The notes beneath the pieces were generated by a model that was not told the DNA's origin, did not search any database, and saw only the letters and a list, made by a program, of their open reading frames with translations. The translations under genes and the position numbers were made by a program. A DNA stretch of 35,170 nucleotides from an uncultured Flavobacteriales bacterium (GTDB lineage: Bacteria; Bacteroidota; Bacteroidia; Palsa-965), in the NCBI GenBank assembly GCA_903873905.1, contig CAIQQJ010000179.1, positions 1 through 35,170 of the forward strand. The letters are read 5' to 3'. Every line of letters starts with the position of its first letter. The stretch's first letter is position 1. Shown here in pieces: positions 10,169 to 31,384 of the stretch.

Positions 10169-10285
10169 ATTTCTTGACATGCCCTACTATAAATATTAAA
10201 AATAGTAATGGAAAAATAGTTGAGCACTAGTATCAAATTCTTGAATCTATTGAATCCTTCTTCCTAACTTGGTGTGTTCAATTTT

Positions 10286-13200
10286 ATGCAGAAGCCTTTT
10301 CCAATTTTTATTTTTTTTGTGCTGTTCTGCAATTCCATTTTTGCACAGCAATATAATTTCCATAATTATTCCGTTGCCGATGGTCTCGCGCAATCGCAAG
10401 TTTACACTATGGCGGAAGATCCTCGCGGGTATTTGTGGCTGGGTACGCGCGGTGGAGGATTAAGCAGATTTGATGGACAACAATTCCAGACTTTTACGGA
10501 AGATGATAGTTTGCCAAGCATGTTTATCACTTGTCTGCAAATTGATCCGAAAGGAAACATCTGGATTGGGACGGACGAGGGAGCTGCATGGTACGATGGT
10601 GAACATTTTCACAAAATGAAATTCCCAGGAAGCAATGGCGCCATCAATGATTTTTATTTTGGAAAAGACCAACTCACTTACATCGCAACCAATGACAGCG
10701 GACTAGTTGTATTAAAAAACAATCTTCTTGTCCATGATTATGTTTATGGTAATGGACTTCTTTCCAATCGTGTTTATTGCATTACGGAAGGTGTGAAAGG
10801 GGAAATCTGGTTAGGGACAGAACAAGGAGCATGTCGACTTGAGAATGAAAAAACATTTTTCTATGGAAAGAAACAAGGATTTCCAGTGATTGGTGTAAGG
10901 GAAATCCTAAAAGACAATCATTCAACAATGTGGTTCGGAACTTATGGAAGCGGTTTGATAAAATTGACAGATACATTGGTGTCACGCTTAACAGTGGATG
11001 ATGGACTTTCCAATAATTCAGTTCAGTGTATGATTCAAGATCGTGCAGGAAAAATTTGGGTAGGAACTTCTTCTGGCGTAACAAGAATTTCAGAATTTGA
11101 AGTAAAGCAATTTTCAGAACGAGAAGGATTGTGCAGTAATAGTGTCATGTCATTATTGGAAGATACATGGGGAAATATTTGGTTTGGAACTTCTGGAGGA
11201 GGCGCTTGCAAATTGGATGGAGAACGTTTCATTCACTTCAATGAAAAAAGCGGAGACATGGGAACGTGGGTGTATTCAGTGCATTGTGATCAGAAAGGAA
11301 AAATGTGGTTTGCAACCTCTCGTGGTGGAGTGACGGAATACGATGGAACATACTACACGAATTATTATGAAGGTGCTGGATTTACATCTTCAAAAGTGAG
11401 ATGTTTCGGAGAAGATACTACTGGCACAATGTGGTTTGGAACGGTTGGTGATGGAGCTTATAGTTTGAAGAATGGAACATTTCATCATTACAATTCTTCG
11501 AATGGACTTAGTGGGAATTACGTAAATGATTTTTTTACTGACAATTTCAATCGTGAATGGATGGCAACAGCAGGCGGAGGAATTTCAATTTTTAATCCTG
11601 CAGTAAATTCATTCACACACGTCAATAAAAAAAACGGATTAACAGATGATAGAATAAATTCATTTGCAAAAGACGAAGGCGGAAGTGTTTGGGCGGGAAG
11701 TGTTCACGGTGGAATATTTTATATTCAATACGACAGCATCGGCGTTACTTTCATTCGACAATTCACAATGAAAGATGGCATTCCAGGAAATTATGTTCGT
11801 TGTGTAACTAAAGATCGATTTGGAAATATGTGGTTTGGTTTTGCAGGTGGCGGAATCTCACGACATGCCACTCCCTTGCCTGATGATCTTACAAATCATT
11901 TCAGAAATTATTCCAAAAAAGATGGCCTTGCCTCGGATAATATTTATTTAATGATTTGTGATCACGATGGAAATTTGTGGGTGGGAACAGAAAAAGGATT
12001 GGATAAAATTGCATACGATGAAAAAGGAAATATTCTTTCCATCAAACATTATGGAAAAGGAGAAGGATTAATAGGAATTGAAACATCCTTGAATGCAGCT
12101 TGTCTTGACACTGCGAATGGAGTTTGGTTTGGAACAATTAGCGGAGCTAGTCTTTATAATTCTGAAAACGATATCATCAATAGAGAATCACCTCGTGTGC
12201 ATCTCACCGGCATCCGATTGTTTTTTGATCCAATACAAAACACACCCTATTGGAATGCTTCAGCAAAAACAAAATGGTTTCCTATTCCCGATTCACTTGT
12301 TTTACCCTACACACAAAATCATTTACGTTTTGAATTCACAGGAATTGATTTGCGAAATCCAGAAGGCGTTCAGTTTCGTTGGATGTTGATTGGTTTTGAC
12401 AAAACATGGTCGCCTGAAAATAATGAACGTCAAGCCACCTACTCCAATCTTCCTCCTGGAGAATATATCTTTTCAGTGCAAGCAAAAAACTCTGATGGAT
12501 TCTGGAGTGAAATGCAAAAATTCAGTTTTAAAATCACTCCTCCTATTTGGGCAACTTGGCCCTTCAGAATTATTGCTGGTTTATTTATTCTTTTGATAAT
12601 TGGAATTATTTTTTCATGGCGTGTACGACTCATTAAGAAAAAAACAAAACAGCTGCTTGAAAAAGTTACACTGGAAAAACATGTTTTAGAATTGGAACAG
12701 AAAGCCCTGCGTTTGCAAATGAATCCACATTTTATTTTCAATGCATTGCAATCCATTCAAGGTTTCATTGCCAGAAATGATTCGGCAGAAGCAAGAAGGT
12801 ATTTGGCGAAATTCGGAAAATTGATGCGTGCCACATTGGAAAATTCACGTCACGCCTATACGAGTATCGCACTCGAAACGGAATCACTTTCACATTATCT
12901 TGGACTTGAAGCATTGTGTCATGGAAACCGCTTTACATTTTCAATCGAAACCGATCAGCGCATTGATCCAGAAGCAACTTTTATTCCTGTGATGTTGATT
13001 CAACCTTTCGTAGAAAATGCTGTATTACATGGCTTGCTTCATCTCACAGAAAAACCCGGAAGAATTGACATTCGTTTTATGCTCAATGAAAAATCTGTGA
13101 TTTGCGAAATTGAGGATAACGGCGTTGGCAGGACAAAAGCGAAAGAATATGAATCGCAAACCAAAAAAGATCATAAGTCAGCGGCACTGGAAATTACGCG

Positions 13201-13333
13201 TGAACGTTTAGCACAAGCGAATGAAAAAGGAATGCCGAAAAGCAATTTGGAAATTATCGATTTGTTCGATCAGGAAAAAAATCCATCAGGAACGAAAGTT
13301 GTCATTCGAATTGGAAATGTTGTGTTTGAATAG
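10286..13333 (+). CDS. Two-regulator-propeller sensor histidine kinase, LytS/YehU type
   Basis: Starting at ATG 10286 (a GTG four codons earlier is also open), the protein has 1015 residues. A signal peptide (MQKPFPIF...IFA-Q) leads into about 14 propeller blades carrying the recurring (I/L/M)W(F/I/L)GT..GG motif, enough for two seven-bladed beta-propellers in the periplasm (to about 640). A Y_Y_Y-like Ig domain (about 685-755) and one membrane helix (about 765-785) follow. The cytoplasmic kinase is of His_kinase (LytS) type, with phospho-acceptor H815 in QMNPHFIFNAL, N-box N911 in PFVENAVLHG and the DNGVGR G-box. A LytTR response regulator normally pairs with such kinases, but none is adjacent. 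The ligand is unknown; in related proteins the propellers sense glycans or other surface signals. Confidence 0.9.
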   Translation: MQKPFPIFIFFVLFCNSIFAQQYNFHNYSVADGLAQSQVYTMAEDPRGYLWLGTRGGGLSRFDGQQFQTFTEDDSLPSMFITCLQIDPKGNIWIGTDEGAAWYDGEHFHKMKFPGSNGAINDFYFGKDQLTYIATNDSGLVVLKNNLLVHDYVYGNGLLSNRVYCITEGVKGEIWLGTEQGACRLENEKTFFYGKKQGFPVIGVREILKDNHSTMWFGTYGSGLIKLTDTLVSRLTVDDGLSNNSVQCMIQDRAGKIWVGTSSGVTRISEFEVKQFSEREGLCSNSVMSLLEDTWGNIWFGTSGGGACKLDGERFIHFNEKSGDMGTWVYSVHCDQKGKMWFATSRGGVTEYDGTYYTNYYEGAGFTSSKVRCFGEDTTGTMWFGTVGDGAYSLKNGTFHHYNSSNGLSGNYVNDFFTDNFNREWMATAGGGISIFNPAVNSFTHVNKKNGLTDDRINSFAKDEGGSVWAGSVHGGIFYIQYDSIGVTFIRQFTMKDGIPGNYVRCVTKDRFGNMWFGFAGGGISRHATPLPDDLTNHFRNYSKKDGLASDNIYLMICDHDGNLWVGTEKGLDKIAYDEKGNILSIKHYGKGEGLIGIETSLNAACLDTANGVWFGTISGASLYNSENDIINRESPRVHLTGIRLFFDPIQNTPYWNASAKTKWFPIPDSLVLPYTQNHLRFEFTGIDLRNPEGVQFRWMLIGFDKTWSPENNERQATYSNLPPGEYIFSVQAKNSDGFWSEMQKFSFKITPPIWATWPFRIIAGLFILLIIGIIFSWRVRLIKKKTKQLLEKVTLEKHVLELEQKALRLQMNPHFIFNALQSIQGFIARNDSAEARRYLAKFGKLMRATLENSRHAYTSIALETESLSHYLGLEALCHGNRFTFSIETDQRIDPEATFIPVMLIQPFVENAVLHGLLHLTEKPGRIDIRFMLNEKSVICEIEDNGVGRTKAKEYESQTKKDHKSAALEITRERLAQANEKGMPKSNLEIIDLFDQEKNPSGTKVVIRIGNVVFE

Positions 13334-14625: not shown

Positions 14626-16740
14626 ATGAAACGTCTCTTCCCACTGTTTTTTTCTTTGGCAATAGTTGCCTGTTCTTCTGAGAATTCTGCCAATAAAAAA
14701 TACACCTATCCGCATTCCAGAAAAGTTGATACAGTTGATACCTATTTCGGTGTTAAAGTTCCTGATCCCTATCGTTGGCTTGAAGATGACAATTCTGATT
14801 CCACCAAAAAATGGGTAGACGAAGAAAATAAAGTAACACAAGATTATTTGGCTCAAATTCCTTTCCGAAATAAAATCCGTGATCGTTTGCGTCAGATTTG
14901 GAATTTTGAAAAGATGAGTGCGCCTTATTTAAAAGGCAAAAGATATTTCTATTCGAAAAATGATGGCATGCAAAACCAATCGGTTCTTTTTTACAAAGAC
15001 GAATTGAATGGAGCAGGAAAAATGTTGTTGGATCCGAATAAACTTTCTACCGATGGAACAACTTCTTTACAAGGATGGGAAGTTTCACATGATGGAAAAT
15101 ACATGCAATATGGAACAAGTAAAGCTGGTTCTGATTGGGAAGAATTCAATGTATTGGAAATTGCTTCTGGAAAATTATTGGATGATCATTTGAAATGGAT
15201 AAAATTTTCTGGCGCTTCCTGGAGAGGTGATGGATTTTTCTACGGGCATTATGATGTTCCGGTAGGAAGTGAACTTTCTTCCAAGAATGAAAACCAGAAA
15301 TTATTCTTTCACAAATTGGGCGATGCCCAGGATAAAGACATGCTCGTTTACAAAGATGATGCACATCCAAATCGCATGTTCAGTCCACAGGTTACTGAAG
15401 ATCAAAATTGGTTAATCATTTATTCCTCTGAATTCACCAGTGGAAATGGATTCATGGTGAAAGACTTGAATAATCCAAAATCAGAATTCAAAACCATTGT
15501 TGATCTCAATGAGAAATCAAATGATTATGGCGTGTTGGATATTGTTGGAAGAAAAATGATTGTTCGAACCAACCACAATGCACCCAATTACAAATTGGTG
15601 GAAATCGATTTTGATCATGCCGAAGAAGCGAATTGGAAAACCATTATACCAGAATCGAAAAGTATGCTCGAGGGAGTTTCGCTTGCTGGCGATAAATACA
15701 TCGCAAATTATCTCGTCGATGTAAAATCACAATTGATGATTTTCGATAAGAAGGGAAATAAGGAAGGCGATTTGCCAATGGAAAAAATGGTTTCTGTCAG
15801 TGAATTGAGTTCCGACCGAAATGACAGTTTGGTTTTCATGAGCATCGCAACATTTACCGGTCCGACTTCAATATTTAAATACAACCTCAACACAAAACAA
15901 TCTTCACTCTATTTCAAACCGAATCTTGATTTCAAAACGGAAGAGTACGAAACGGAACAGGTTTTTTATCCAAGCAAAGACGGCACAAAAATCCCAATGT
16001 TCATCACGCACAAAAAAGGAATCAAGATGGATGGAAATAATCCATGTTTCATTTTTGGTTATGGTGGATTTACATCTCACTATTCTCCAGAATTTAGAAT
16101 TGATCGCGCTGTATTTTTGGAATCTGGTGGCGTTTATTGTGTGGCAAACATTCGAGGTGGTGATGAATATGGTGAGACTTGGCACCAAGGCGGAATAAAA
16201 TGCAACAAACAAAATGTATTCGATGATTTTATTGCGGCTGCTGAATATATGATCGAACAAAAATACACGAGCAAGGAAAAACTCGCTTGCCAAGGAAGAT
16301 CAAATGGAGGATTGCTCATTGGTGCGTGTGAAACACAACGACCAGATCTTTATAAAGTTTGCATTCCAATGGTTGGTGTAATGGACATGTTGCGCTACGA
16401 CAAATTCACCATCGGTCGCGCATGGTCGAGTGATTATGGTTTGAGCGAAAATGAAAATGAATTCAATTGCCTTTTCAAATATTCACCGCTTCATAATATC
16501 AAGGAAGTAAGTTATCCCGCAACATTGATTACCACTGGCGATCATGATGATCGTGTTGTTCCTGCACACTCTTTTAAATTTGCAGCAACCATGCAGGAAA
16601 AACAACAAGGCGATAATCCAATTCTAATTCGCATTGACAAAAACGCAGGACATGGTTCAGGAAAACCAACCGATAAACAGATTGAAGAATTCGCTGATAT
16701 CTGGGCCTTTGTTTTTTATAACATGGGAATGACATACTAA
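14626..16740 (+). CDS. Prolyl oligopeptidase (S9A), predicted lipoprotein
   Basis: The 704-residue serine peptidase cleaves after proline in oligopeptides. The N-terminus is a signal peptide with lipobox IVAC at the tip, so the enzyme is probably lipid-anchored in the periplasm. The PDPYRWLEDDNSD motif typical of the family begins near residue 45. A seven-bladed propeller (about 80-430) precedes the alpha/beta-hydrolase domain. The catalytic triad is visible as S559 in GRSNGG, D642 in DHDDRVVP and H676 in AGHGSGKP; spacing matches porcine prolyl oligopeptidase (554/641/680). The usual GGSNGG is GRSNGG here, a mild variant. A TAAATTTA box lies 26 bases upstream of the start. An M1 peptidase follows on the same strand, so the two may serve peptide utilisation together. 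Confidence 0.94.
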   Translation: MKRLFPLFFSLAIVACSSENSANKKYTYPHSRKVDTVDTYFGVKVPDPYRWLEDDNSDSTKKWVDEENKVTQDYLAQIPFRNKIRDRLRQIWNFEKMSAPYLKGKRYFYSKNDGMQNQSVLFYKDELNGAGKMLLDPNKLSTDGTTSLQGWEVSHDGKYMQYGTSKAGSDWEEFNVLEIASGKLLDDHLKWIKFSGASWRGDGFFYGHYDVPVGSELSSKNENQKLFFHKLGDAQDKDMLVYKDDAHPNRMFSPQVTEDQNWLIIYSSEFTSGNGFMVKDLNNPKSEFKTIVDLNEKSNDYGVLDIVGRKMIVRTNHNAPNYKLVEIDFDHAEEANWKTIIPESKSMLEGVSLAGDKYIANYLVDVKSQLMIFDKKGNKEGDLPMEKMVSVSELSSDRNDSLVFMSIATFTGPTSIFKYNLNTKQSSLYFKPNLDFKTEEYETEQVFYPSKDGTKIPMFITHKKGIKMDGNNPCFIFGYGGFTSHYSPEFRIDRAVFLESGGVYCVANIRGGDEYGETWHQGGIKCNKQNVFDDFIAAAEYMIEQKYTSKEKLACQGRSNGGLLIGACETQRPDLYKVCIPMVGVMDMLRYDKFTIGRAWSSDYGLSENENEFNCLFKYSPLHNIKEVSYPATLITTGDHDDRVVPAHSFKFAATMQEKQQGDNPILIRIDKNAGHGSGKPTDKQIEEFADIWAFVFYNMGMTY

Positions 16741-16744
16741 AACG

Positions 16745-16811
16745 AGTTGGAAAGTTGCAAAGTTGAATTTGGAAAGTTGAAAAGTTGGAAAGTTGGAAAG
16801 TTGGAAAGTTG
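16745..16811 (+). repeat. Periodic GTTGGAAA micro-repeat after a stop codon
   Basis: About eight near-copies of GTTGGAAA (some GTTGAAAA or GTTGCAAA) start four bases after the stop of the prolyl oligopeptidase gene. The unit length is 8-10 bases and the copies are imperfect. It shares its motif with 13426-13454. Confidence 0.75.
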
Positions 16812-16932
16812 AAAAAAAAAGACTCCGTTTACTTAGCGTATCAGCGGCAAAATGAGTTAACAAATATGCTTTCGTTGGAAAGGGGCAGAGAGCGGTGAGA
16901 ATTCCCTATCTTTAATAATACAATTTAATCAC

Positions 16933-23242: not shown

Positions 23243-25228
23243 TCAATGTAGATTTTGCACCCACGCATCCGCAAACTCTTTCCTTGCTTCCCTTGCTAAC
23301 GCTACTGCTTCATCTTGTGTGGCTGGATGGCCAACAGTAACGTACATGAATCCATTTACTTTATTGTAGGCGAGTTGAACTTTTGGATATTGTGGTTTGT
23401 CTTTCACTTTTAATTCCATTCGTTTCGCATAATCAATATTCTTAAATGATCCGATTACGACGTAAAAGCCAGGTTCTGCTGGAGTAACATTATCTTCTTG
23501 GGTAAAGTGGCTGCTAGAATCATTCACCGTGCGAATGCCATGCAATTTGTCGATGATTTGTGTGTTCTTCTGAATTGTAACAACATTCATGGAATCCTTC
23601 GAACTCAACTTTCCGAATTTTTCAGGATGTGCCATCCTAAATTCATCAGAATAAAAATTCACATTGATTTCATGCGTAGTATAGGTCTGAATTTCTGTCG
23701 CATCGTAAGTTTTCAAAGAGTCATCCTGACCACTAACCAGAAAATACAATTTGTAGTTCTCTCCCTTAGGTAAATTGATTGTATAATTTCCGTTATCTGC
23801 ACTGGCACTATAATCACCTTGAATATCGCTTTTGTTTGTATAGGCTACTGTCACCGTGGCCGACGTTGGTTTATCATCTAAGGTCACTTTTCCGCGAAGC
23901 GTTACCAATTCGGCAGCAGGGATTCCAGGTGATGAAAAATATAAATCCATCATTCCATTTCCTCCACCTCTATTGGAAGAATAAACTGCACTGAATCCAT
24001 CTTTTGCTGGTTGATAAAAAATATCATCAGCAGTACTATTAACTGGCGCACCCATGTTTTGTGCCAACTCCCAACTCTTCATATCTGCTCCTAATCCACA
24101 GAAGAAAATATCATACCCGCCCATACTGTTATGACCGCGAGAACTGAAATATAATGTGTTTTCATTATTACCAAGAAACGGTGCATCATCATCAAATTCC
24201 GTATTCACATTGGCACCAAGATTCAAAATATTTCCCCAAGCGGTATCACCGATTAATGTTGCTCGATAAATATCTTTCCCACCAAATCCACCAACACGAT
24301 CACTTGCAAAATAAATTGTTCTACCGTCTTTTGTAATTGTAACACTTCCTTCCCAAGAATCAGGCTTATTGATTTCACCAGCTAATTTCATAGGAGAAGT
24401 CCAATCTGTTCCAGCTTTTCTTGACATATAAATATCACCACCATCTGAATTGGAAGAACGATAGATATATAAAATAGTTCCATCAGGTGACATGGCTGTT
24501 CCTGCATCATGTTCAATTCCATTTAGATTCTCACTTAATCCCTGTGGAGCAAACCATCCGGACGTAGTAAGTTGAGATTGAAAAATATCTTCATGATAAA
24601 CTCCTGCAGAATCTGATTTCCCAAAAGTGTAATTTTTCCCGCCAGTACATTCAGGACCAGCATAAGTGAAAATAATGGTGGAATCGTTGTGAAAAAGAAT
24701 TGGCGCAAATTCATTGCCAGGAGAATTCAATGGGCGACCGGCATTGGTAACAATGTTATTCGTTTGTTTTCCTGAAATTTCTTTTGCGGAAGAACAATTG
24801 ATGATGTATTGATTGAGTCTTGATTTTTGACTATCGTCCGTTTCTTTTGCCAACTGCAAATTAAATTGTAGGGTGGCATCATCATATTGTCCATTGAGAA
24901 GATAGGCGCGACCAAGAAAAAAATTCACATCTGTAATAGTGGGATCTTTGTCATAGCTGCTTTTAATTAAGCTCAATGCATTTTCAGGATCGCCTTGATA
25001 GATTGCACAAACACCAGCACGAAATTGAAACACTACGTTTTCTGGATGCAGGTCTTTCAATTTCATATAATAACCGAAAGCCTGTTCGTATTCACGTTTT
25101 GCAAACAATGCATCAGCATGACTGATCATTGTTTTTTCACTGCCGGATTGTGCAAATGCAATAACAGGTTGGATTGAAACCAACATTATCAGAACAAAAA
25201 ACCGCAGGTAAAATTTCTTTACGTTCAC
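23243..25228 (-). CDS. PorE-like TPR / beta-propeller / CRD protein with C-terminal SPOR domain
   Basis: The 661-residue protein has a signal peptide (cleavage near AFA-Q at 26). TPR-like helices span about 30-150. A PD40-type beta-propeller spans about 165-435, with repeated GGxDIY(x) strands: GGDIYMS, GGKDIYRAT, GGYDIFFCG and MMDLYFS. A carboxypeptidase-regulatory-like beta sandwich (LRGKVTLDDKPTSATV...) spans about 442-525. The order matches T9SS component PorE, which ends in an OmpA-like peptidoglycan-binding domain. Here the last 75 residues (587-661) instead look like a SPOR domain (PGFYVVIGSFKNIDYAKR ... VNGFMYVTVGHPATQDEAVALAREARKEF). SPOR domains bind denuded septal glycan. The gene follows the PorP/SprF-like gene in one operon, with 105 bases between them. 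I infer a periplasmic wall anchor for the outer-membrane partner. Confidence 0.85.
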   Translation of the reverse strand: MNVKKFYLRFFVLIMLVSIQPVIAFAQSGSEKTMISHADALFAKREYEQAFGYYMKLKDLHPENVVFQFRAGVCAIYQGDPENALSLIKSSYDKDPTITDVNFFLGRAYLLNGQYDDATLQFNLQLAKETDDSQKSRLNQYIINCSSAKEISGKQTNNIVTNAGRPLNSPGNEFAPILFHNDSTIIFTYAGPECTGGKNYTFGKSDSAGVYHEDIFQSQLTTSGWFAPQGLSENLNGIEHDAGTAMSPDGTILYIYRSSNSDGGDIYMSRKAGTDWTSPMKLAGEINKPDSWEGSVTITKDGRTIYFASDRVGGFGGKDIYRATLIGDTAWGNILNLGANVNTEFDDDAPFLGNNENTLYFSSRGHNSMGGYDIFFCGLGADMKSWELAQNMGAPVNSTADDIFYQPAKDGFSAVYSSNRGGGNGMMDLYFSSPGIPAAELVTLRGKVTLDDKPTSATVTVAYTNKSDIQGDYSASADNGNYTINLPKGENYKLYFLVSGQDDSLKTYDATEIQTYTTHEINVNFYSDEFRMAHPEKFGKLSSKDSMNVVTIQKNTQIIDKLHGIRTVNDSSSHFTQEDNVTPAEPGFYVVIGSFKNIDYAKRMELKVKDKPQYPKVQLAYNKVNGFMYVTVGHPATQDEAVALAREARKEFADAWVQNLH

Positions 25229-25333
25229 AAATCACTTATTAAATTCAAAAAACAGGATCAAACTTTTACAGATTCCAAAAGCAATATTCAAATACCGATT
25301 TTTGTAATCTGTTTATTTGTTCTCTGAAATCTT

Positions 25334-26278
25334 TTAATCATATTTTCCACGTTCGTGTGCACCGCCTGTAGCCGCACCTGACATTTGTCCAAATTTATAA
25401 CCAAGCATGAATTCATGACTGATTCCTGCAGATGTTTTGAGTGGTGTAATAATAATGTCGTAAGCATAACCAGCGGAAAGATTTCCAAAAAGTTTAATAC
25501 GAGCATTAATTCCGATGGCATAATTACTTCTGTAACAAACGCCCAACCAAGCCATATTTTTCCAACTGCAAGCGGCATTGATATCATATTGAAAAGGAGT
25601 ATGCGGCAACCAACGCACTAAAACCATTGGCTCAAGAGCGAGTTGTTGATCTTCGTTGAAAACCCATTTGTAATTTACAGATCCAACATAATGGCGATTC
25701 AATTGATAAAAAGATCGCGTATCATAATCCGCAAACTTCACACGTTGACCAATCAATTGGGGAACGGAAATACCAACACGCAGGTCTTTCCAATTGAAAG
25801 ACACTCCAAGATTTGCATCCAAAGCGGATTTGCGTTGCATCTGGCTCATCATCATAGGATCGTTTGCGTCTTTTACGATTGCTTTTGAAAAATCAATTCG
25901 ATTATCCAAAAAGCCAATTGCCAATCCAAAACGAACTGCCATATCATCGTTAATTTTCAAACGATAAGAATAGGAAGTGTAAATTCCGAGACGTTCATTG
26001 ATATCTTGTACATCATTGAATACGGAAAATCCAAGTCCGATGTTTTTATTATCCATAAAACCATCTACAGTAAATGCATTGGTGACTGGTCCGCCTGGCA
26101 TTCCTGTCCATTGCTGACGATGCACGAGAAACGCATTCGTTTCATTAGTCAAACCTGTAGTTGCAGGATTGTACAGAAAAGGATTTACAGAATATTGACT
26201 GTACAATGGCAATTGCTGCGCATGCGATGGAGCGATAAACGATCCGATTACAAGGCCTGTGAATAGCAACTTTTTCAT
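25334..26278 (-). CDS. PorP/SprF family type IX secretion outer-membrane protein
   Basis: From ATG 26278 the protein has 314 residues with a signal peptide (MKKLLF...SHA-Q). In-frame ATGs at 26290 and 26302 would add 4 or 8 residues. The start of the mature protein (QQLPLYSQYSVNPFLYNPATTG), the HRQQWTGMPGGPVT segment and the repeated amphipathic beta strands (NIGLGFSVFND, GISHEFMLGYKFG) are the family hallmarks of PorP/SprF. SprF-like proteins are outer-membrane beta-barrels needed for surface attachment of specific type B cargo, as SprF serves SprB. Here the cargo gene lies directly upstream (29-base gap) and a PorE-like gene downstream, in one operon. So a dedicated role for this cargo is well supported. 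Confidence 0.93.
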   Translation of the reverse strand: MKKLLFTGLVIGSFIAPSHAQQLPLYSQYSVNPFLYNPATTGLTNETNAFLVHRQQWTGMPGGPVTNAFTVDGFMDNKNIGLGFSVFNDVQDINERLGIYTSYSYRLKINDDMAVRFGLAIGFLDNRIDFSKAIVKDANDPMMMSQMQRKSALDANLGVSFNWKDLRVGISVPQLIGQRVKFADYDTRSFYQLNRHYVGSVNYKWVFNEDQQLALEPMVLVRWLPHTPFQYDINAACSWKNMAWLGVCYRSNYAIGINARIKLFGNLSAGYAYDIIITPLKTSAGISHEFMLGYKFGQMSGAATGGAHERGKYD

Positions 26279-26307
26279 ATAGCTTGGCATAAGTGTGTTC
26301 ATAGGAA

Positions 26308-29300
26308 TTATTTTTTCTCGCTGATAAGTGTAACGGCACCTTTTACGGTATCTCCAGTATCATTGAATTTGAGAACATAATAATATGTTCCATCTGGCAA
26401 TTGGTTGTTGTTGAATGTTCCATTCCAACTGTTGTTATAGTTTTCTTGTGTGAAAACAACCATTCCATTTCTATTGTAAATCGTCACTTTATTATTTGGA
26501 TAATATTCGATGTTCTGAATATTCCAAACATCATTGTATCCATCACCATTGGCAGTGATCAGGTTTGAAATAACAACGTTGTAATCTTTTACAAATGTTA
26601 CCACAACAGCATCCGTATCAGTACATCCATTAATACTTGTAACGGTAAGTGTGTAAGTAACTGTATAGGGTGGTGTGCAACTTGGATTAGCAACATTCGG
26701 ATCATCAAGTCCTACAGTTGGTGACCAAGAGAAAAAGTCTCCACCATTTCCAAGTAATGTAATTGTGGAGCCTGCGCTTACAGAGGTATCAGGACCTGCT
26801 GTTGCATGTGGACTAGGCCAAACAATTAATGTAACAGAATCAGAAGAAATACATCCAGTAATTGTATCTGTAACGGTGATCACATAGTTCCCTGCAGTTG
26901 ATGCAAAAACAGAATCAACAATTGCACCTGTGCTCCATAGGTAATGAACTTGGGGAGCTGAAGTCACACTCAATTCTGCGCTGTCACCTGCACAAAGCGT
27001 GAGGCTTGGAACAGACGAAGTGATTACTGAAGATGGAAGCGGATTAACAATTACAGCCTGAATAATGGTATCTGAGCAGTTGTGATCTGATACAACTATC
27101 AACGAAACGTTGTAAGTATTAGCCGAACCATAAATATGAATTGGATTGGTAGAAACGGAGGCATTGTTATCAGCAAAATCCCATTCGTGCAATAATATTC
27201 CGCCACTTGTGATGGAAGTTGTATCGGTAAATAGTGTAGGATTTCCTTGACAAACAGTTGGCGCTGTAAATCCAGCAATAGGTTTCGGATAAACTGTAAT
27301 TATTCCAATAGAACTTGTATCGGCAGGACAAACGCCACTTTGAACAATTGCCCAATACCAAGTTGTATCCAATGGATTATTCCAGTTTTGGGTTGCAGTA
27401 ATATTTCCAATTGGTGACCAAGTAATTCCTGCATCGTTTGACATCTGCCAATCAGCAATTACGCCTGTGTAATTCGTTAATGTCAATACTCCGTTTCCAG
27501 TTCCTTCGCAAGTCCCAGCACTTCCTGTGACTGTACCTGGAATAGTCATTGGATTAACCGTGATGGTATCGGTAGTGGAATATTGAGCAGGCGTACAAAC
27601 TCCACTGATGACCACTGCACGATATAATGTTGTTTGACTGAGATTCAAATAAACGATTGAATCTGTTGTATTGGAAAGTGCCATCCAATTATTTCCACCG
27701 TCAATTGAGAATTCCCAACGATTTACAGTTCCGGTATAACCAGCAAGATGAATTGTACCGCCGTTCAAACCTGCACAAACCGTATCATTCATTGAGGTTG
27801 TTCCTGCAACTGTAGGAGGATCAACTGTGATAATACCAATTGTTGAAGTATCATTTCCACAAGTACCACTTGCTACAATAACACGATACCAAGTTGTATC
27901 AATGAGGTTTAAATAATTTTCAGTTGCTGTGACATTTCCATCAGCGACCCATGTTACTCCTCCGTCAATAGAAGTTTCCCAAGAAATGATATTTCCAGAA
28001 TAAGAATTGAGTATTAATGACCCTGCATTTGCAGTTCCACAAACGGTAGCACTTCCTGAAACGGTTCCTCCCATAACAACTGGATCAACTGTTATTGTAG
28101 AAACGGAAGAGGTAACTGAAGGACAAACTCCATTTCCAACGCGAGCACGATACATAGTGGTGACCATCAAATTTGAATAAGCTTGCGTTGTGGTGGTATT
28201 TGAAATATTAATCCAAGTTGTTCCTCCATCAACTGAATATTCCCAACCAACCACATTTCCTGTGTGCCCATTCAATGTGAGAACACCTGCATTCGCACCA
28301 GCACAAACTGTTGCATCGAGTGTAACAGCACCTCCAACGGAAGGAGCATCCACTGTGATGGTAACATTTGTTGATGTGTCGGTAGGACAAACTCCACTCG
28401 CTACAATAACACGATACATGGTAGTGTCAATAAGATTTAAGTAGTTATAGGTGTTTGTAATATTTGCAATCGGCGACCATGTGAGACCATTATCAATGGA
28501 GGATTCCCATTGGGTAATTGATCCACTGAAACCAACTAATGTCAATGTTCCATTATTTGCTGCTCCGCAAACAGTTGCATTAGAATACAACGTCCCTCCC
28601 ACTGCCTGAGGGTTAACGGCAACTAAAGCTTGTGCAGAATATATCTGTGAGCAAACACCACTTTTCACCAAGGCCCTGTAAATGGTTGCTGTTGTAATAT
28701 TATTATACGCTTGGGTCGTTGTCGAATTTAAAATTGTAATCCAAGTAATTCCACCATCAGTAGAATATTCCCATTGCACCACAGCGCCGGTATTTCCTGA
28801 AAGAGTAAGCGTTCCAACATTTAAACCACTACAAGCAGTAGTCGCTATTGGTGCAATTGTTCCTCCAACTGAAACAGGATCTACAACAACAGTATCTTCA
28901 ATTGCCGTATCAGAAGAACAAACTCCACTCTGAACAATTGCTTGATAATAGGTTGTAACTGGCAAATTCAAATAAGCCTGAGATGTCGTTGCATTTACAA
29001 TGGTAGTCCAAGTAATATGATCTGTGGAAGATTCCCAACGAACCACTGTTCCTATATTCCCAGCTAATGTCAATGTTCCTCCATTCCCAGATGCACAAAC
29101 GGTCGAACCTCCAGTAATTGCTCCACCAACCGAAGTTGGATTGACTGTCACAGTTGCTGTAGCAGAATAGGCAGATGTACAACCACCATTTTGCGACAAT
29201 GCGCGATACATTGTGGTTGTAACGAGGTTTGTATAATTAAGAGAGGTTGTAGTATTGGCAACGATAGTCCATGTCAAACCTCCGTCAATTGAAAATTCCC

Positions 29301-30597
29301 ATTGAGTAACGGTTCCATTACTTCCACTCAACGTTAATGTTCCTGAATTAATTCCAGTGCAAACCGATGAAACGGCAGGTGTAACAATTCCACCAAGAGT
29401 AGAACTAACAACATTTACCTGAGCTGTATCGGAATAAATAACTGAGCAAGGGCTACTTTGAACTCTCACTCGATACCAACGGGTAGCCAGAATATTTAGA
29501 TAGGTCTGTGTTACAGTAACGTTGACAATGCTGATCCATGTTACGCCGCCATCTGTTGAATATTCCCAACGCACAACAGTTCCAATTTTTCCATTTAGTG
29601 TAAGTGTTCCAGCATTGCTTCCGCTGCAAACAGTAGAAACAAGTGGAGTTACATTTCCTCCAACTGAAAGTGGACTAACAGTAATAATTACAGCACTGGA
29701 ATAAACCGAACTACAAGAACCACTTTGAACCAAAACACGATAGCGAGTTGTGATTACAAGATTGACATAAATAAGACTTGTAGTTACATTGGCAACGTTC
29801 GTCCAAGTTACTCCTCCATCAATGGATTTTTCCCAACGAATTACGTTTCCTGTTTTTCCTGATAATGTCAAAGTCCCAACATTACTTCCTGTACAAACCG
29901 TTGCGGCAGTAGTTACTGTACCTCCTACAGAAACGGGATCAATTGTAATAATGGCAACAGATGAATACGCTGTTGTACAAGCGCCATTCTGAACAAGTGC
30001 GCGATATCTTGTAGGTATGGTTAAATTATTATAGGATTGAGTTGTAGTGGAATTGGTAATGTTAATCCAAGTAAATCCACCATCAGTTGAATATTCCCAA
30101 CGTACCACATTACCAGTTTGCCCAGCTAATGTAAGATTCCCAGAATTGCCAGAAAGACAAACACTTCCAGGACCGGTAACTGTACCTCCCACACTTGGCG
30201 CAGTGTTGGTTACAACATATCCTGGAAAAGCATCATTAGCCGGACTAATATCACCTGCCAAAGAAACTGAACCAACAAAAGTATAAGCACCCGCAACAGA
30301 TAAATTCGCTTGTGTTACAAAAGTGTAAGTATAGGTGGAGTTTGAAGTCAGAGGGGCTGCAAGAGTTACTAATTCTGTAACAGGCGCACCAGCGTTAATT
30401 GTATAGGATACATTAAACGTAGTCGCAGCAGGTAATGTAGATCCAAAATTGAAAATCTTAATGGTTACATTTTCAGTAGCTGTTAGTGCACATCCAGAAA
30501 CTGGCGCTGTAATGTTGTTGACTGACAAATCATTCTGCGCAATAGCTGCAGAAGAAAACATTGTCACAAATGCGAGAAGTGTAAGAATTCTCTTCAT
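26308..30597 (-). CDS. Giant T9SS surface protein with 11 Ig-like repeats, PKD-like domain and type B sorting domain
   Basis: From ATG 30597 the product has 1429 residues. A TTG 13 codons earlier is unlikely, as MKRILTLLAFVTMFSSAAIA-Q is a clean signal peptide. Residues about 22-130 form an N-terminal beta domain (CARDB-like: DLSVNNITAPVSGC). Residues 136-1106 are 11 tandem repeats of 87-89 residues, each with an early Cys (xTVC), a (R/Q)WE.S.DGG.TW Asp-box-like motif and a late Cys (SGVC). A PKD-like domain with HEWDFADN follows (about 1107-1190), then two further Ig-like segments. The C-terminus (about 1335-1429) is a gliding-motility-associated type B domain, with ITANGDGYNDVWNI, KVTIYNRNGMVVF and LPDGTYYYVLKF. 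It is probably an adhesin or surface filament. First gene of an operon with its PorP/SprF partner. Confidence 0.93.
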   Translation of the reverse strand: MKRILTLLAFVTMFSSAAIAQNDLSVNNITAPVSGCALTATENVTIKIFNFGSTLPAATTFNVSYTINAGAPVTELVTLAAPLTSNSTYTYTFVTQANLSVAGAYTFVGSVSLAGDISPANDAFPGYVVTNTAPSVGGTVTGPGSVCLSGNSGNLTLAGQTGNVVRWEYSTDGGFTWINITNSTTTQSYNNLTIPTRYRALVQNGACTTAYSSVAIITIDPVSVGGTVTTAATVCTGSNVGTLTLSGKTGNVIRWEKSIDGGVTWTNVANVTTSLIYVNLVITTRYRVLVQSGSCSSVYSSAVIITVSPLSVGGNVTPLVSTVCSGSNAGTLTLNGKIGTVVRWEYSTDGGVTWISIVNVTVTQTYLNILATRWYRVRVQSSPCSVIYSDTAQVNVVSSTLGGIVTPAVSSVCTGINSGTLTLSGSNGTVTQWEFSIDGGLTWTIVANTTTSLNYTNLVTTTMYRALSQNGGCTSAYSATATVTVNPTSVGGAITGGSTVCASGNGGTLTLAGNIGTVVRWESSTDHITWTTIVNATTSQAYLNLPVTTYYQAIVQSGVCSSDTAIEDTVVVDPVSVGGTIAPIATTACSGLNVGTLTLSGNTGAVVQWEYSTDGGITWITILNSTTTQAYNNITTATIYRALVKSGVCSQIYSAQALVAVNPQAVGGTLYSNATVCGAANNGTLTLVGFSGSITQWESSIDNGLTWSPIANITNTYNYLNLIDTTMYRVIVASGVCPTDTSTNVTITVDAPSVGGAVTLDATVCAGANAGVLTLNGHTGNVVGWEYSVDGGTTWINISNTTTTQAYSNLMVTTMYRARVGNGVCPSVTSSVSTITVDPVVMGGTVSGSATVCGTANAGSLILNSYSGNIISWETSIDGGVTWVADGNVTATENYLNLIDTTWYRVIVASGTCGNDTSTIGIITVDPPTVAGTTSMNDTVCAGLNGGTIHLAGYTGTVNRWEFSIDGGNNWMALSNTTDSIVYLNLSQTTLYRAVVISGVCTPAQYSTTDTITVNPMTIPGTVTGSAGTCEGTGNGVLTLTNYTGVIADWQMSNDAGITWSPIGNITATQNWNNPLDTTWYWAIVQSGVCPADTSSIGIITVYPKPIAGFTAPTVCQGNPTLFTDTTSITSGGILLHEWDFADNNASVSTNPIHIYGSANTYNVSLIVVSDHNCSDTIIQAVIVNPLPSSVITSSVPSLTLCAGDSAELSVTSAPQVHYLWSTGAIVDSVFASTAGNYVITVTDTITGCISSDSVTLIVWPSPHATAGPDTSVSAGSTITLLGNGGDFFSWSPTVGLDDPNVANPSCTPPYTVTYTLTVTSINGCTDTDAVVVTFVKDYNVVISNLITANGDGYNDVWNIQNIEYYPNNKVTIYNRNGMVVFTQENYNNSWNGTFNNNQLPDGTYYYVLKFNDTGDTVKGAVTLISEKK
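27280..30192 (-). repeat. Eleven tandem coding repeats of 261-267 bases
   Basis: Repeat borders, in gene order, are 30192-29929, 29928-29665, 29664-29398, 29397-29131, 29130-28870, 28869-28603, 28602-28339, 28338-28075, 28074-27811, 27810-27544 and 27543-27280. Each begins at a (V/L/M/I)GG-type motif (VAG and IPG in the last two). Alternate units resemble each other most: 2 and 4, 3 and 5, 8 and 10, and 7, 9 and 11 (the last three share N..DTT.Y..IV.SG.C). This indicates growth by duplication of two-repeat blocks. Confidence 0.9.
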
Positions 30598-30844: not shown

Positions 30845-31130
30845 TCAATGGACAACGATGTCCAATTGTGCTATTGAATGACCTCCTGCCAAAATTTGAA
30901 GGTGGTATGTACCAGACTCAGTGCCGCTTAAAACCACCTGTTTGGTATGAAATCCAAAAAGATTTAATTCTTTACCATAGTCCTTGATTTTTCGTCCAAA
31001 AGCATCAAACAAGGCTATTTCTCCATTCGTAGTTGTGCCAGGTAATAGGAATGAAGCAGTTATTAGAACTTGAATTTGGATAAACAGCAACCTTTGAAAA
31101 ATTGTAAAGACTCTGCCATTCTAATTTGTG
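30845..31130 (-). pseudogene. Frameshifted remnant of a T9SS type A sorting domain
   Basis: On the minus strand, one frame (about 31130-31050) reads LYNFSKVAVYPNSSSN, the usual entry of a type A sorting domain (KVAVYPNP). A second frame, ending at the TGA at 30845-30847, reads ASFLLPGTTTNGEIALFDAFGRKI and ends SGTYHLQILAGGHSIAQLDIVVH, the usual middle and end. The two halves join only if a frameshift near 31050-31070 is repaired, and the frame is stopped just upstream (about 31142). There is no cargo domain left. This is most likely the tail of a lost T9SS cargo gene. Confidence 0.7.
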
Positions 31131-31384
31131 GCAAACTAATTCTCAAAAAATCCTGACAAATAAAATTTGCGATTACATCATTGCTTAAAATAACCTGGGG
31201 CTCACACTTCAAAAACGGAGATTTTCATTCGCTTAATTATATGCCCTTTCATAAGGATTAACAAAAACTCCCACTTATCAACATTGATGAGGATTCTAGA
31301 CTTACGCTTTGTAATTTTAATCCAGAAATTATTCCCCAAAAAATCTTTATCCTCTGTTATTAATTTTTAATTATTAATTCGCCC

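Follow-up and report, generated by a model that had tools for sequence, protein, structure and literature searches.

A type B T9SS locus with a SPOR-tailed PorE-like partner in an uncultured Flavobacteriales bacterium and its relation to PorP-SPOR fusions

The window analyzed here is contig CAIQQJ010000179.1, 35,170 nt in length, from assembly GCA_903873905.1 of an uncultured Flavobacteriales bacterium (Bacteroidia; Palsa-965); it is one of the 181 contigs of a 3.93-Mb genome rated 100% complete. On its minus strand, an adhesin gene is followed by a PorP/SprF gene and then by a gene for a PorE-like protein (Table 1), with gaps of 29 bases (counted to a PorP start with MKKLLF at position 26278) and 105 bases. 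The preliminary description of this DNA had listed a type B giant, a PorP/SprF barrel, and a TPR/propeller protein, encoded by three same-strand genes with these gaps; the coordinates are confirmed, and the type B CTD and the PorP score above curated cut-offs. A scan for promoters and terminators, a method that is weak for Bacteroidota, found no credible terminators in the intergenic gaps of the operon. The same three genes are found in the same order in all six related genomes (five from the same genus and one from a sister genus) that encode full-length orthologues of the SPOR-tailed third protein, which show 46 to 64% identity across the six relatives. Thus, the operon arrangement is not due to chance. 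Two features are absent from the preliminary description: the C-terminal SPOR domain of the PorE-like protein and, upstream of the adhesin gene, the decayed remnant of a gene for a secreted protein with a type A C-terminal domain (CTD). The latter gene is intact in that position in all six relatives, where it encodes a product of about 360 aa.

Table 1. Features of the three-gene locus and its upstream flank (positions in the window)
Feature	Position	Strand	Remarks
PorE-like periplasmic protein, 661 aa	23243..25228	-	GTG start; TPR - beta-propeller - CRD - SPOR
SPOR domain of the PorP-fusion subfamily	23258..23473	-	canonical Q and R absent
PorP/SprF-like outer-membrane carrier	25334..26302	-	TIGR03519; likely start 26278
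Short predicted periplasmic C-tail of PorP	25337..25390	-	no cysteine; ends RGKYD
Type B T9SS adhesin, 1429 aa	26308..30597	-	signal peptide, N-terminal domain, 11 repeats, PKD, type B CTD
Type B C-terminal sorting domain (CHU_C / TIGR04131)	26326..26571	-	profile matches
11 disulfide-type Ig-like repeats, ~88 aa each	27280..30189	-	Cys pair ~60 aa apart in each; Ig_7 PF19081
Decayed remnant of type A CTD secreted-protein gene	30854..31224	-	three frames, C-terminal part only

The sorting domain of the adhesin matches PF13585 with 89.1 bits (cut-off, 27) and TIGR04131 with 72.2 bits (cut-off, 35). Together with the PorP/SprF gene located directly downstream, this identifies the adhesin as a type B substrate of the T9SS. 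Cargo of type B remains attached to its carrier. Within this genome, the distances between PorPs correlate with those between the CTDs of their cargo proteins (r = 0.91 for 16 pairs; permutation p = 0.0005), a correlation not readily ascribed to species history. In a wider sample, r = 0.85 over 85 pairs.

The carrier scores 235 bits with TIGR03519 (cut-off, 90.55) and 220 bits with PF11751 (cut-off, 22.3). Its tail (...GGAHERGKYD) lacks the Cys-X-Cys gliding motif of the SprF type; the RGKYD terminus is found in every PorP read in the window family. The SprB-SprF system is similar in that a type B adhesin has its own carrier, the C-tail of which is periplasmic. However, the Cys-X-Cys motif of the SprF tail bonds to GldK (PMC12635249), whereas the window PorP has no cysteine in its tail and a PorE-like gene in its operon.

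Elsewhere in the genome, gldK, gldL, gldM, and gldN score above their equivalog cut-offs on a single contig, beside two PorP genes, and sprA is intact (2656 bits). The translocon core is thus encoded outside the window, as the preliminary description had supposed, and the window locus represents an accessory module. The genome encodes 21 PorPs, that of the window included. Type B CTDs scoring over the cut-off number about 50, and of about 19 proteins with a PorE scaffold, at least 9 end in an OmpA domain. The window PorP is located on a separate contig from gldKLMN, and the core PorPs fall outside its 59-row clade in the PorP tree; judged by location and phylogeny, it is not of the core T9SS type. 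These data support the assignment of the three-gene locus to accessory type B T9SS modules specific to their cargo. The preliminary description had named two observations that would refute it, namely a genome devoid of other T9SS genes and a sole PorP/PorE pair that clusters with the core type; neither applies. Among other cargo-PorP-PorE loci of the genome, those on contigs C102, C176, and C51 are OmpA-tailed (the PorP of C51 meets the contig end), and the PorE gene on C133 is cut by the contig end. The window operon is the only SPOR-tailed one among the readable loci of this kind. A second PorP (L054:7220-9829, plus strand) is found beside an apparent GldK paralogue, recognized by eye, at a distance from the main gldKLMN cluster of this genome.

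Two other features of the window deserve mention. The product of the plus-strand gene at 10274-13333 was considered as a candidate PorZ and rejected: it scores 102 bits with the PorZ model (cut-off, 260) and has the Pfam domains of a Reg_prop/Y_Y_Y/His_kinase sensor. Such a histidine kinase sensor could be misannotated as PorZ. At 16745-16815, just past the stop codon of an oligopeptidase-like gene (14626-16740), there is an 8-base tandem repeat (AGTTGGAA) in nine copies.

The third protein of the operon matches the Pfam TPR and PD40 domains, with CarboxypepD_reg below its gathering score, and the strand/helix pattern of its model agrees with TPR, beta-propeller, and CRD regions. PorE is defined by its OmpA peptidoglycan-binding domain. 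Such a C terminus is absent from the window protein, which scores 177.7 bits with the PorE model NF052230, against a cut-off of 600, and has in its place a SPOR domain (PF05036, 31.9 bits; gathering score, 21). No lipobox cysteine was seen by eye in its signal peptide, and the protein is not assigned to outer membrane lipoproteins. The full-length structural model is of moderate confidence (pLDDT 75, pTM 0.56) and retrieves mostly generic propeller matches. The AlphaFold model of the SPOR tail, built from a 20-sequence alignment, has a pLDDT of 95 and the beta-alpha-beta-beta-alpha-beta order; among its top five PDB matches are SPOR domains, those of CwlC, RlpA, and DedD, with probabilities of 0.98 to 1.00.

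In characterized SPOR domains, a glycan-contacting glutamine (Q270 of RlpA, Q251 of FtsN; PMC6895207) is highly conserved, yet it is no requirement of the Pfam family definition. This residue is replaced by Val or Ile in all 7 window-type domains and in all 31 scored SPOR domains fused to PorPs (see below), whereas 29 of the 30 canonical SPOR domains of PorE proteins retain it. The arginine equivalent to R285 of FtsN, also described in PMC6895207, is replaced in 7 of 7 members of the window family; an invariant Trp is found in the last strand. As both residues are replaced in every member of the window family, glycan is only a putative ligand of this subfamily, which may bind a protein or something other than denuded glycan. 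The window domain shares the fold and Pfam family with the SPOR domains of FtsN, DamX, RlpA, and CwlC but differs from them in the replaced glutamine and basic residue; SPOR domains of its type are attached to carriers of the T9SS or to partners of these, not to division proteins.

A class-wide search with a PorP alignment, blind to SPOR, showed that about 21 of 23 loci with the nearest PorP relatives outside the window family encode PorP-SPOR fusions, located directly after type B cargo. Two close relatives, L267 and L274, have no SPOR tail at all. With the extension of this set by a search with the SPOR subfamily, fusions were confirmed in 39 of the sampled genomes, representing 19 families, and their genes almost always lie right behind one for type B cargo. 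Longer flanks were read for 28 fusion loci; in 27 of these the fusion directly follows a cargo gene, and in none does a PorE gene adjoin it, which is the pattern predicted for a SPOR tail that takes the place of PorE. In a test of 10 fusions against curated Pfam models, PF11751 was matched in all 10 and PF05036 exceeded its gathering score in 6, falling just under it in 3 more. A phylum-wide scan for the SPOR subfamily returned few matches and adds little, as its sample barely overlaps the class sample. Window-type Ig-like repeats are found in the cargo of 23 of 46 fused PorPs and in none of the cargo of PorPs whose neighboring PorE gene is OmpA-tailed or tail-less; within the sample, they are confined to the cargo of the PorP-SPOR clade. 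These shared repeats and the covariation of PorPs with cargo CTDs fit the known cognate pairing (PMC12618676).

Several other domain architectures were seen in these searches. A type B cargo gene directly precedes that of a 1250-aa PorP-OmpA-SPOR triple fusion (L347:4811-8563, minus strand). PorE-scaffold proteins with both an OmpA domain and a SPOR domain, the latter on the N-terminal side, are encoded at L334:4887-7676 (+), directly after cargo and PorP, and at L340:4791-7349 (+). In L313, L315, and L319, one cargo gene is followed by tandem PorPs, first a PorP-SPOR fusion and then a PorP with a different C-terminal extension that weakly matches the PorE scaffold. A recurrent order of cargo, tail-less PorE scaffold (~520 aa), and PorP, with no wall-binding domain detected, is found in L176, L184, L187, L192, L198, L207, L211, L216, and L219. 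PorE scaffolds with a canonical SPOR tail, most of which keep the Q and R residues, are found in L142-L173 and on contigs C111 and C77 of the window genome; such proteins are widespread in Bacteroidia and mostly unlinked to PorP. Outside any PorP context, a SPOR domain of the PorP type is found at the C terminus of a sulfatase (L318:3211-6495, plus strand).

In the PorP tree, the window family is nested within the PorP-SPOR fusion clade with a support of 100/100 (100/93 for the inner clade). Grouping of the fused PorPs without the window family is rejected with a p-AU of 7e-5, for a comparison group chosen after the tree was seen. The SPOR tail of the window protein scores 65 to 76 bits with a model of the fused SPOR domains built without the window family but only 5 to 12 bits against the SPOR domains of other PorE-scaffold proteins; the SPOR tree places the window and fused domains together, apart from those of other PorE scaffolds, at 100/100. 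The scaffold, in contrast, falls among the PorE proteins with canonical SPOR tails in a quick tree (SH-aLRT 99) and does not group with the OmpA-tailed PorE. Descent from the widespread SPOR-tailed PorE paralogues therefore holds for the scaffold and is ruled out for the tail, and the PorE-like protein is best read as a chimera of a PorE scaffold and a SPOR domain of the PorP-fusion type. The parsimonious history would be one in which the SPOR tail was lost from PorP and gained by its partner; as the PorP tree is unrooted, the choice between gain and loss rests on parsimony.

The cargo-PorP-PorE operon type itself has already been described, with five such operons in Flavobacterium johnsoniae (PMC12618676). 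The Fjoh_3952-3951-3950 operon has the same gene order as the window operon; Fjoh_3952, which has a PorE-like neighbor, is static, and the two operons probably share this static display role. That paper links no SPOR domain to PorE, whereas the window partner carries one of the PorP-fusion type. In Porphyromonas gingivalis, PorP binds both PorE and PG1035, and noncovalent anchorage has been proposed for this set of a type B cargo, a PorP barrel, and a TPR-propeller-CRD partner (PMC9143113). The P. gingivalis PorE, however, is an outer membrane lipoprotein with an OmpA-like peptidoglycan-binding domain, as opposed to the SPOR tail and absent lipobox of the window protein, and P. gingivalis has a single PorP versus 21 in the window genome.

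The reading that we favor, and consider fairly probable, is that the window encodes a surface-display operon in which the adhesin sits on its own PorP and is tied to the cell wall in trans, through the SPOR domain of the PorE-like partner. The three genes would be cotranscribed, and the adhesin, once exported through the core T9SS, whose genes lie outside the window, would stay bound through its CTD to the PorP/SprF-like barrel. The TPR-propeller-CRD protein would bind this barrel from the periplasm, and its C-terminal SPOR domain would tie the carrier complex to the wall, making the adhesin a static rather than a gliding one. The SPOR unit would then act in cis, on PorP, in most lineages and in trans, on the PorE scaffold, in the window lineage. 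As the C-tail of SprF is periplasmic, a SPOR domain fused to the C terminus of PorP should likewise reach into the periplasm, the compartment in which a wall anchor would function.

Alternatively, the SPOR domain, in whose subfamily both ligand residues are lost, could have given up wall binding and serve for protein docking, linking PorP to some other component of the periplasm or of the T9SS. Its presence in many architectures, including those with OmpA (L334, L340, and L347), which would have no need of a second wall anchor, is in line with such a role. However, the SPOR domain of the fused PorPs occupies the place in which a wall anchor or PorE would be expected to function, and PorE genes are absent beside the fusions, which makes this explanation unlikely. 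It is also quite improbable that the tail keeps the ordinary binding of denuded glycan and that the operon thereby directs the adhesin to sites of cell division or to new poles. The confirmed fold, the PF05036 score, and the invariant Trp, in the same strand as an important Trp of DamX, would agree with this, as would the function of characterized SPOR proteins in division or morphogenesis (PMC6895207). Still, septal targeting is lowered as a first choice by the missing glutamine, retained in nearly all canonical PorE SPOR domains, and by the change at the FtsN R285 position. The proposal in the preliminary description that the locus is a copy of the PorP-PorE machinery can hardly be upheld: the domain order up to the CRD is the same and the rounded NF052230 score reaches 178 bits, but the missing OmpA domain, the shortfall from 600 bits, the grouping of the scaffold with SPOR-tailed PorE proteins, and the derivation of both PorP and tail from the PorP-SPOR clade indicate a pair assembled from other parts rather than a duplicated core pair. 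Covariation of the PorP with its cargo, also raised in that description, was borne out.

A broader scheme can be put forward tentatively, in which the periplasmic C-tail of PorP/SprF serves as a modular address for the type B adhesin. A Cys-X-Cys motif would direct it to the moving gliding track, and an OmpA domain, or else a PorE partner, would attach it to the wall. The distinct, widespread SPOR subfamily would send it to a target, in the wall or elsewhere, other than the usual denuded glycan. On this scheme, the locus described here might be a natural experiment in which the SPOR unit moved from carrier to partner, perhaps when a PorE scaffold became inserted between barrel and tail.

A literature search that covered neither most subscription journals nor bioRxiv preprints found nothing that links SPOR with PorP or SprF, save one incidental comention; within the same limits, it found no SPOR-tailed PorE-like partner, PorP-SPOR fusion, or domain transfer between them. 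For nongliding type B adhesins of Bacteroidota, the OmpA-tailed PorE is the only wall link proposed in the literature examined. The PorP-SPOR fusions and their split form in the window point to a second, direct anchor and, as gene fusions, are evidence for a joint function of PorP and PorE-like proteins as a single unit.
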